From the NCBI GenBank assembly GCA_016183775.1, contig JACPDY010000036.1:1-51240 (forward strand): a DNA stretch of 51,240 nucleotides, given 5' to 3'. A model generated the notes under the pieces. That model was not told the DNA's origin and did not search any database. It was given only the letters and a program-made list of their open reading frames with translations. Origin of the DNA: Bacteroidota bacterium (GTDB lineage: Bacteria > Bacteroidota > Bacteroidia > JABDFU01). Positions 10,568-32,260 of the stretch are shown here, piece after piece (position 1 is the stretch's first letter; each line of letters starts with the position of its first letter). The position numbers and the translations under genes are program-made.

Positions 10568-11917
10568 ATGGCACAAACAGCAACTGCTGAAAAGAAAACT
10601 TCGGGTAAAAATCCTCCTCCGTTTTTAAAATACAAAGTAAAGGATATATCATTGGCCGAGTGGGGTCGTAAAGAAATAAAATTGGCTGAGCAGGAAATGC
10701 CCGGCTTAATGTCGCTCCGCGAAGAATTTGGTCCGAAAAAGCCATTAAAAGGTGCCCGCATTGCCGGTTGCCTGCATATGACCATTCAAACCGCTGTGTT
10801 GATCGAAACATTGGTTGAACTGGGTGCTGATGTTACCTGGTCATCCTGCAATATTTTTTCAACACAGGACCACGCTGCTGCAGCTATTGCCGCTGCGGGT
10901 ATTCCTGTTTATGCCTGGAAAGGAATGACCAACGAAGAATTCGACTGGTGCATTGAACAAACACTTTTCTTTGGTGAAGACAGAAAACCATTGAATATGA
11001 TACTTGATGATGGCGGCGACCTTACCAATATGGTTTTGGATCTATACCCACATCTTGTAAAGGATATTAAAGGCATCTCTGAAGAGACCACTACAGGTGT
11101 TCTTCGCTTACATGAACGTGTAACCAAAGGAACTTTACCGCTTCCGGCTATTAACGTTAACGATTCTGTTACAAAATCCAAATTCGATAATAAATACGGC
11201 TGCCGCGAATCATTGGTGGATGCTATACGCAGGGCCACTGACCTTATGCTTGCCGGAAAAGTTGCTGTTGTTGCCGGTTACGGTGATGTAGGAAAAGGTT
11301 CCGCTGAGTCATTAAAAGATTCAAAAGTTCGTGTTATTGTAACTGAAATCGACCCGATATGCGCGTTACAAGCCGCCATGGAAGGTTATGAAGTGAAAAA
11401 AATGGACGAGGCTATTAAAGAAGCTGATATTGTGGTTACCGCTACCGGTAATTTCAACATCATTACTGACCGCCATTTCAAAGCTATGAAACACAATGCC
11501 GTTGTTTGTAACATTGGTCATTTTGATAATGAAATTGACATGGCCTGGCTGAACAAAAACCATGGCAAAACAAAAGACACCATTAAACCACAGGTTGACA
11601 AATATACTGTTGATGGTAAAGATATTATCGTACTTGCTGAAGGCCGTTTGGTAAACCTTGGTTGCGCAATGGGTCACCCTTCATTTGTAATGAGCAACTC
11701 GTTTACCAACCAAACACTTGCTCAATTGGAACTATGGATGAATCCAGGCAAATATGAAAACAAAGTTTATACGTTGCCAAAACACCTGGATGAGAAAGTA
11801 GCCCGCCTGCACTTGAAAAAAGTTGGTGTAGAGATTGACACATTAACTGATCAACAGGCTAAATACATTGACGTTCCTAAAAACGGTCCGTTTAAGAAGG
11901 ATACATACAGGTATTAA
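10568..11917 (+). CDS. ahcY: Adenosylhomocysteinase
   Basis: The protein has 449 residues and catalyses reversible hydrolysis of S-adenosylhomocysteine to adenosine and homocysteine, removing the inhibitor left by methyltransferases. Diagnostic stretches are [54 protein letters not shown], the NAD-binding [15 protein letters not shown] and the C-terminal [14 protein letters not shown] with the conserved Lys-Tyr that contacts NAD of the neighbouring subunit. The start fits the promoter at 10497. It is a single-gene unit ending in two hairpins. Full length and intact. Confidence 0.97.
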
Positions 11918-11924
11918 AAGTAAA

Positions 11925-11990
11925 GCGGGTTTAAAACCCGCCTTTCATATAAAAGGGCTGAGATTGCAACGAGCAATTTCAGCCCTTTTT
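11925..11990 (+). terminator. Double hairpin terminator after ahcY
   Basis: A first stem GCGGGTT/AACCCGC (11925-11931 with 11935-11941) is followed by a longer stem with AAAGGGCTGAGATTGC at 11952-11967 and its near-exact complement at 11973-11988, ending in a run of T. The second is a good intrinsic terminator. Confidence 0.75.
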
Positions 11991-12038: not shown

Positions 12039-12484
12039 AAACTCTACGCACCTTTCCCGATTAAGGAAATTATGAAACTAATAAGTATAGAACAAATAAA
12101 TAATAAAAGGAGGAAGTTTTTTAATTCATCCTCCTTTATTAGCAATCAAATTTATTTGACTGCTTTTCCTATTGCAACACCAATTTGTATTCCTAATATA
12201 ATAGAATACAAAGAAACGAAGCAAATTTGGAAACTATGGGTTTTACTCATAGCTTACATTAGACAAAGGGATAACGCAACCTTTGGGAAAGTCTACACGT
12301 TACTTTGTCTAATTATCTTAAAGGATTTATTTATTTGCCATTATTACATAGAAAGGAAAATAACGGATATAAAGTCATTCTTAGATGACATTACATCTTT
12401 CTTTCGTAACAACATTTCCATAAATGTAATAAATTGTTTCTTGTTTATTCACTTTTCCTTAATCGGGAAAGGTGCGAAACTCTA
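12039..12484. mobile_element. Non-autonomous insertion element with 23-bp inverted ends and 8-bp target duplication
   Basis: Perfect 23-base inverted repeats occupy 12047-12069 (beginning CGCACCTTTCCC) and 12454-12476 (ending GGGAAAGGTGCG). Immediately outside, the 8-base word AAACTCTA is present in direct orientation at 12039-12046 and 12477-12484, the expected target duplication. The 430-base body is AT-rich, encodes no recognisable transposase, and carries two internal hairpins (about 12102-12140 and 12259-12312). Eight-base duplications are known from families such as IS256, ISL3 and IS1595, so the element was probably moved by such an enzyme encoded elsewhere. It lies between the convergent 3' ends of ahcY and the TonB receptor. 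Confidence 0.85.
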
Positions 12485-12536
12485 TCAAAAATGGGGTAAA
12501 TTATACTCTAAAAACGCACACGCAATGCCGCGGTAA
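12072..12536 (+). CDS. Possible passenger ORF of the 430-bp element
   Basis: An ATG at 12072, just inside the left inverted repeat, opens a frame of 154 residues that stays open across the whole AT-rich element and stops at 12536, overlapping the end of the receptor gene on the other strand. About 135 open codons in such AT-rich DNA is more than expected by chance. The product (MKLISIEQINNKRRKFF..., hydrophobic stretches near residues 25-40 and 55-85) matches nothing I recognise, and the last 20 codons lie outside the element. It could be a remnant or an accident. Confidence 0.25.
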   Translation: MKLISIEQINNKRRKFFNSSSFISNQIYLTAFPIATPICIPNIIEYKETKQIWKLWVLLIAYIRQRDNATFGKVYTLLCLIILKDLFICHYYIERKITDIKSFLDDITSFFRNNISINVINCFLFIHFSLIGKGAKLYQKWGKLYSKNAHAMPR

Positions 12537-31129: not shown

Positions 31130-31350
31130 TATGGACTGAAAGTCCATAAGTTGTGGTAAAGAAAGAATAAAACTCTTTCCACAATACTAAATAAAAATGC
31201 TCAGTGTTTCTCTGTGTCACCTGTGTGCCTGCACACCGAAGTGTTTTGGCACACAGGTGTGAACTTTGTGTAACAAAAAATTACACAGAGAAAAAGGAGT
31301 TTCACAGAGTAGCAGGGTTTCAACTAACGAATGAGGGCAATGAAAATTAT
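31130..31350. repeat. Duplicated leader region, copy 1 (before redoxin gene)
   Basis: Shares with 31937-32260 an ordered set of words: CTGAAAGTCCATA, a CTCTGTGT-rich hairpin around CACACAGGTGTGAA, GTGTAACAAAAAA, TTACACAGAGAAAA and TTTCAACTAACGAATGAG, the last running into the start codon. This copy lacks the 96-base insert present in copy 2. Confidence 0.75.
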
Positions 31351-31921
31351 CCAGTCGGCAACAAAATTTCTATTCCCGCTTTTTCTACTTGCATGCTCTG
31401 CCCATCACACTAATAAAAATGAGTTGTTTACCATTACTCTTAAAACGATTAATGGCGTAGAATTTCCACTTCAGCAACTTTCAACAAATAAAGCATCGGT
31501 GTTTATTTTTTTATCGCCTGATTGTCCTGTGTGTCAGAGTTATTCTCTTACTTTAAATCAATTATTTGATAAATACAAAACGGATGGAGTGAAATTTTAC
31601 GGAGTGTTTCCCGGATCAAATTTTGACAGGTCAGAGATTGAAACATATATAAAAACTTACAATTTAAAGCCTGATCTGTTGATGGATGAAGAAAAACACC
31701 TGAGCACTTTACTTGGAGCAAAAGTCACTCCTGAAGTATTTGTCATAGACCGAATGGGGAACATTCTCTATAAAGGCAGTATCGATAACTGGATGTATGA
31801 ACCCGGACAAAAACGAACCCTTATCACAGAACATTATTTGGATGATGCATTGAATGCTCTTATATCAAATACTGCAATAAAAACAATTTCGACTGAAGCT
31901 AAAGGATGTTTAATTGAATAA
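31331..31921 (+). CDS. Redoxin-domain lipoprotein (thioredoxin fold)
   Basis: The protein has 196 residues (or three fewer from the in-frame ATG at 31340). The N-terminus is a lipoprotein signal, FLFPLFLLACSAHH, with Cys near residue 22. The thioredoxin-like domain has VFIFLSPDCPVCQSYS with a CPVC active site near residue 65, YGVFPGSNF, VTPEVFVIDRMGNILYKG with the cis-Pro (TPE) and a C-terminal helix. It is probably a periplasmic or outer-leaflet thiol reductase or peroxiredoxin-like partner. It precedes a cytochrome c/PHM-like lipoprotein and shares its leader sequence. In other phyla such domains occur fused to cytochrome and PHM-like domains. Confidence 0.82.
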   Translation: MRAMKIIQSATKFLFPLFLLACSAHHTNKNELFTITLKTINGVEFPLQQLSTNKASVFIFLSPDCPVCQSYSLTLNQLFDKYKTDGVKFYGVFPGSNFDRSEIETYIKTYNLKPDLLMDEEKHLSTLLGAKVTPEVFVIDRMGNILYKGSIDNWMYEPGQKRTLITEHYLDDALNALISNTAIKTISTEAKGCLIE

Positions 31922-31936
31922 AAAATAAACTAAACC

Positions 31937-32260
31937 ACCATGTGCTGAAAGTCCATAGTTAATGGTAAAGGAAGGATGAAATTCTGATTCTCTGTGTCTC
32001 CTCTGTGCCTGCGCACAGAAGTATTTTGTCACACAGGTGTGAAACTCTGTGTAACAAAAAAATTATACCAAATATAAATTAATCCGTAACTTCTCTCTCC
32101 TTTGGAGAGAGACAAAGAGTAAGGCCAAAAAACAAAGACTAATTTATATTTATAATTGGTATTACACAGAGAAAAGAGAGTAGCCACAGAGAGAAGAATT
32201 TTTTTAGAAACTGAAAGTGCAGATTTCAACTAACGAATGAGACCAATGAATAAGTATTTG
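31937..32260. repeat. Duplicated leader region, copy 2 (before cytochrome/PHM gene)
   Basis: This is the second copy of the leader seen at 31130-31350, here interrupted by a small insertion at 32066-32161. The similarity runs through TTTCAACTAACGAATGAG into the start of the downstream coding sequence. This 315-base gap holds no other gene. Confidence 0.75.
32063..32164. mobile_element. About 96-bp MITE-like insertion
   Basis: TACCAA at 32066 and TTGGTA ending at 32161 are the tips of imperfect inverted ends (TACCAAATATAAATTA against TAATTTATATTTATAATTGGTA). The centre has a CTCTCTCC/GGAGAGAG hairpin. Copy 1 of the leader is an empty site: there AAAAAATTACACAG is continuous, whereas here TTA is present on both sides of the insert, giving a 2-3-base target duplication. 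Confidence 0.8.

Follow-up and report, generated by a model that had tools for sequence, protein, structure and literature searches.

The window analysed here, i.e. the whole stretch of 51,240 nucleotides of contig JACPDY010000036.1 from a Bacteroidota bacterium, very probably contains a MITE-like DNA transposon of 430 bp (12047-12476) that is non-autonomous, complete and recently inserted. The kind of mobile element is an ordinary one; what is odd is that we found a lone copy with neither relative nor partner, and that a stop-free frame runs through it from end to end.

Ends, target duplication and extent

The element is bounded by terminal inverted repeats which are identical in 23 of 23 bases: CGCACCTTTCCCGATTAAGGAAA at 12047-12069 (left end, plus strand) and its exact complement at 12454-12476 (right end, minus strand), 384 nt apart. 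By eye, each end holds a short inner TTTCC...GGAAA palindrome. The 8-mer AAACTCTA is duplicated exactly (8/8) directly outside both ends, at 12039-12046 and 12477-12484, and the G+C content of the element is 29.5% as against 39.9% in the whole window. The window contains 19 perfect inverted repeats with arms of 12 bp or more and a span of 60-3000 bp; the one that bounds the element is the longest (the next has 14 bp), and it alone is flanked by a duplication of 5 bp or longer. An earlier note on this DNA had described the 430-bp element with its exact 23-bp ends and 8-bp target duplication, and in this respect it was right. Its further claims, that no transposase lies inside and that the insertion is complete and recent, are likewise supported: no transposase was matched (Pfam and NCBIfam gave nothing, PHROGs weak matches to proteins of unknown function), and the perfect ends and perfect duplication agree with the absence of the element from the same gene pair in a genus mate.

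Insertion site

The insertion lies in the narrow space between two convergent genes, as the earlier note had it. The left neighbour is ahcY (adenosylhomocysteinase; stop at 11917; TIGR00936, 642 bits, cut-off 498); the right neighbour, on the other strand, is a TonB-dependent receptor gene (stop at 12508; PF00593 and PF07715), which in NCBIfam comes closest to a heme receptor subfamily, though below that family's cut-off. The genes are separated by 590 bp, or, by arithmetic, by 152 bp when the element and one duplication are subtracted. The terminator scan places an ahcY terminator with a 17-pair stem and a T tail on the plus strand at 11951-11989, which the insertion left intact. Because the element landed between convergent genes and downstream of this terminator, starting 57 bp past it, no gene is broken. 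The ahcY terminator is palindromic and may thus serve the convergent receptor gene, too; the scan of the window reveals no terminator between the receptor stop and the element, so that read-through from the receptor gene to the ahcY terminator would include the minus strand of the element.

Among five genus mates, no match to the element was found, an absence that is soft because these assemblies are only 56-85% complete. The gene pair is retained in one of them, G002, where ahcY together with its end can be aligned over 992 bp at 89% and the receptor has a protein identity of 41%. Its gap of about 300 bp consists of other sequence, and the element is directly observed to be absent from it; hence the element was gained or lost within the genus. 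The earlier note had proposed a check for empty sites; an exact empty site is not demonstrable in a gap so diverged. A 2-kb query aligned to G001 and G004 in its ahcY part only. The G002 gap (contig C213, L007) contains a stem of its own, which is rich in G+C and accompanied by a run of T on the minus strand; judged by eye, it is probably the receptor's own terminator, which is missing from this window.

Copies and relatives

The genome itself (4.54 Mb in 164 contigs, 97.7% complete) contains one copy; the further copies that the earlier note expected are not present in this assembly. When the DNA of the element (430-446 bp) was compared with 60 relatives, one other genome gave a match of 50 bp at 82%, without the ends and without the element. 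Among 395 genomes of the class, short matches of 25-54 bp appeared in 12 other genomes (best E 2e-6, the others 5e-5 to 1e-3; one of them, in G043, was read), and they are taken as chance similarity of A+T-rich sequence; among 395 genomes of the phylum, nothing reached 1e-5 except the genome itself. These two samples overlap, and at most two candidates per genome were scored. The plasmid collection yielded no match. The phage collection gave one 51-bp match (E 0.04), which lies in a Spiroplasma phage under an annotated 'putative transposase' and was taken as chance. Within the reach of each search, we accepted no relative, be it by DNA, ends, open frame or fold.

Search for a partner transposase

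MITEs are usually multicopy and accompanied by a partner IS. The earlier note predicted full-length IS copies with the same ends; none was found in any set searched, within a limited mismatch tolerance and, for the genome itself, an incomplete assembly. The exact 23-bp end did not occur elsewhere in the species genomes or in viral contigs, and with up to three mismatches it was detected in its own genome only in this element. The outer 20-mer, with up to three mismatches, occurs at 51 places in the 395 class genomes, 49 of them outside the own genome, and no contig except that of the element contains two such places. We examined 16 of these 49 places: 13 lie in long open frames, and none of the 16 has an inverted partner with fewer than 7 of 22 mismatches. 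A search with the outer 16-mer in the genome and the five genus mates found 31 places in the own genome, an excess over the 11 places of the reversed control. Apart from the element, two places facing inward on the same contig occur only in C44 of the own genome (6.2 kb apart) and in C4 of G001 (7.1 kb apart); both pairs were rejected, with three mismatches per end and ends that are, by eye, unlike each other. A 17-mer match in one viral contig was rejected as well, being located within a long open frame.

With regard to transposase families, the search covered ISL3 and DDE_Tnp_1. No ISL3 transposase (PF01610) was detected in the one genome examined for it, the own genome in its incomplete assembly; a partner of this family may have been lost or may have escaped assembly. 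Three DDE_Tnp_1 loci were found, which we take to be IS5/IS1182-like, and no sequence in any of them matches the 23-bp end with 7 or fewer mismatches. One DDE_Tnp_1 gene of this genome (L062 on contig C149, minus strand), presumably IS1182-like, consists of two open pieces in different frames with an internal TAG and looks broken. Several IS families beyond these two have 8-bp duplications, and multicopy IS are what is most often missing from assemblies in many contigs, as is the present one with its 164. The end sequences were not found in the text of the literature searched. For the earlier note, the lack of both a second copy of the ends and a related IS would weaken the mobile-element reading; because neither was found, the case is somewhat weakened by that measure. 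The ends and the duplication still carry it, despite the single copy.

Fold

The propensity of the element to fold, over almost its entire length, is a direct observation. As RNA, the element with its duplications reaches -125.7 kcal/mol (z -9.7 against 100 dinucleotide shuffles), to which the ends contribute part; the inner 384 nt without the ends have z-scores of -5.7 on the plus and -7.0 on the minus strand when folded as RNA, and of -6.8 and -6.3 on the two strands when folded as DNA. In energy gain over shuffles (12 each), the element ranks first of 86 stretches of the window. The second-ranked stretch (31801-32184) overlaps a dispersed repeat, so a strong fold alone is not unique to the element.

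The predicted structure, drawn on the minus strand, is a multi-branched domain (12093-12337), in which a closing helix (12093-12103/12327-12337) surrounds six hairpins. Hairpin 1 (12106-12137; AAAGGAGGA / TCCTCCTTT) has T-rich sequence following it on the minus strand and looks like a terminator by eye, though it is unlisted by the terminator scan with its loop limit of 8. It is followed by hairpin 2 (12141-12164), the long hairpin 3 with internal loops (12165-12233), hairpin 4 (12234-12252), hairpin 5 (12258-12313) and the small hairpin 6 (12315-12326); a second folded domain spans 12341-12432. Hairpin 5 had been proposed previously as a pairing of 12259-12268 with 12303-12312; it is real, extends to an 11-bp stem (12258-12268/12303-12313) and is one of the six in the closed domain.

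One might suppose that the element is a carrier of a structured RNA on the minus strand and that its fold was selected at the RNA level, a reading which we consider very unlikely. The RNA z-score of the inner part is stronger on the minus strand, and with 13 G-U pairs there against 6 on the plus strand the count tends to favour minus-strand RNA but is no proof of it; the difference in G-U pairs is weak because the DNA folds equally unusually on both strands. Moreover, all eight Rfam matches are under the gathering scores, and no relatives were found. A covariance model built from the single sequence of the element gave weak matches in 5 other genomes of 395, which are taken for chance: L055, L056 and L059 are terminator-type hairpins, L057 has only imperfect distant repeats, L058 has none, and L060 is the complementary strand at the L056 place.

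Stop-free frame

One plus-strand frame is free of stops throughout the whole element, across both ends (143 codons, 12048-12476); the other five frames contain 7 to 19 stops. Starting from ATG at 12072, the open frame encodes 154 aa and ends with a stop outside the element, at 12536. Shuffling did not produce a frame of 143 stop-free codons: the longest had 126 codons in 2000 dinucleotide shuffles and 127 codons in 5000 shuffles with preserved base pairs, which bears out the earlier impression of an unusually long open frame from 12072. The frame is not gene-like. Its codon score is -0.047 as against a minimum of 0.036 among 69 in-frame gene pieces, on a model trained on 22 long ORFs of the window and crude for a foreign A+T-rich element; codons starting with G make up 15%, half the gene level, compared to a minimum of 23% in the 22 long ORFs. 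On these two grounds, the open frame was rejected as a gene.

It is conceivable that the element is a transposon selected for harmless landing, being stop-free, adding 146 codons with the target duplication counted in, folding as a many-branched palindrome and thus able to enter genes in frame, much as Rickettsia palindromic elements (RPE) do, but about three times longer than these and with conventional ends of the DDE type; we give this idea very little chance. The narrower proposal that the stop-free frame is kept so that the element can enter genes unbroken, as RPE do, is in our view highly improbable. One frame is open through both ends, and the element plus one duplication amounts to 438 bp, i.e. 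146 codons, so that an insertion would keep the reading frame, for which the chance is one in three; in addition, contiguous open frames, some of them fused to genes, are reported for other bacterial MITEs in PMC2229807 and PMC10969869. Against this proposal, the sole copy is intergenic, and no in-gene copy was found in any set searched. That the element is autonomous, with the 154-aa frame encoding its own mobility protein of some novel kind, is extremely unlikely, for although the frame is open throughout beyond what shuffles reach, its codon usage is as described, its stop lies outside the element, Pfam and NCBIfam contain nothing that matches it with E up to 10, its PHROGs matches are weak and of unknown function (best E 0.079), tblastn against species genomes, viral contigs, plasmids and phages found no relatives, and AlphaFold on the single sequence gave a mean pLDDT of 45, which is weak and uninformative evidence.

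Comparison with known elements

The non-autonomous transposon works like a MITE, and we assign it to no named MITE or IS family. Its small size (below about 500 bp), A+T content, intergenic place and stable stem-loop fold match what is published for bacterial MITEs in PMC10969869. With type II MITEs (Correia/NEMIS, RUP, ERIC, QMITE, BrickBuilt), as portrayed in PMC4596501, PMC10969869 and PMC2229807, it shares inverted ends, a target duplication of the kind retained by young copies, the lack of a transposase, a length under 500 bp, A+T-richness, an intergenic location and stable stem-loops, and several of these families also have contiguous open frames. Unlike them, it is present in a single copy without a detected IS with matching ends, and it has 23-bp perfect ends, an 8-bp duplication and a many-branched fold instead of one long hairpin. 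Both the open frame through the element and its strong self-folding exceed chance, and both are already published for other bacterial MITEs.

Two further likenesses are drawn by description. RPE are self-complementary and have a frame open throughout, but they measure about 105-150 bp and occur as in-frame copies within protein genes, whereas the only copy of our 430-bp element is intergenic. The Yersinia palindromic sequence YPAL/RU-2 is mobile and folded and has a contiguous, hydrophobic-rich open frame, but it comprises 168 bp and 56 codons and is without long perfect ends.

Regarding IS families, Table 1 of PMC2266710 lists duplications of 8-10 bp for IS4Sa and 8-9 bp for IS50, with which the 8 bp of the element are compatible in length. 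The IS4-type ends given there begin with CA or CT or follow other patterns, and the ends of the element, beginning with CG, fit none of the subgroups (CA, CT, CW, -AATR, YT-AA); a derivative of the IS4 family was therefore rejected. The IS1634 end pattern C-----YT fits loosely, but duplications in this family are typically 5-6 bp according to the same paper, with exceptional members at 8-514 bp, and a derivative of IS1634 was rejected on the typical length.

Proposed course of the insertion

An 8-bp duplication indicates a DDE-type transposase with an 8-bp stagger. Such a transposase, made elsewhere, would bind both identical 23-bp ends in trans and excise or copy the 430-bp unit; by DDE chemistry, the unit would be joined to an AT-rich target whose two strands are cut with an offset of 8 bp, and gap filling would leave the AAACTCTA duplication. 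The interior, free of any transposase, is a filler rich in A+T and complementary to itself, which as a single strand folds up. The element now separates the receptor stop from the palindromic ahcY terminator, and a read-through transcript of the receptor gene would gain a new 3' end, formed by the folded minus strand.

Being a clear single copy whose ends are textbook-like and for which no partner is known, the element marks a transposase specificity – CGCACCTTTCCCG ends and an 8-bp stagger – that we could not match here to a catalogued family. If more copies appear, the stop-free frame and the many-branched fold will be directly testable traits.

Other repeats in the window

Also present in the window is a dispersed repeat that folds strongly and has inverted motifs of the CACAGAG type; it lies at 31990-32064, resuming after 32162, and at 31210-31280. 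A query of 31990-32150, which includes part of an inserted 98-bp element, gave 15 matches in the own genome at E up to 1e-3, counting itself and the second copy in the window. The 98-bp element (32065-32162) has imperfect inverted ends, ATACCAA...TTGGTAT. Another repeat copy of the same genome, L065, is uninterrupted at the corresponding place and hence serves as an empty site; the comparison suggests that the 98-bp element duplicated TA or TTA, which we take to be a trait of MITEs of the Tc1/IS630 type.
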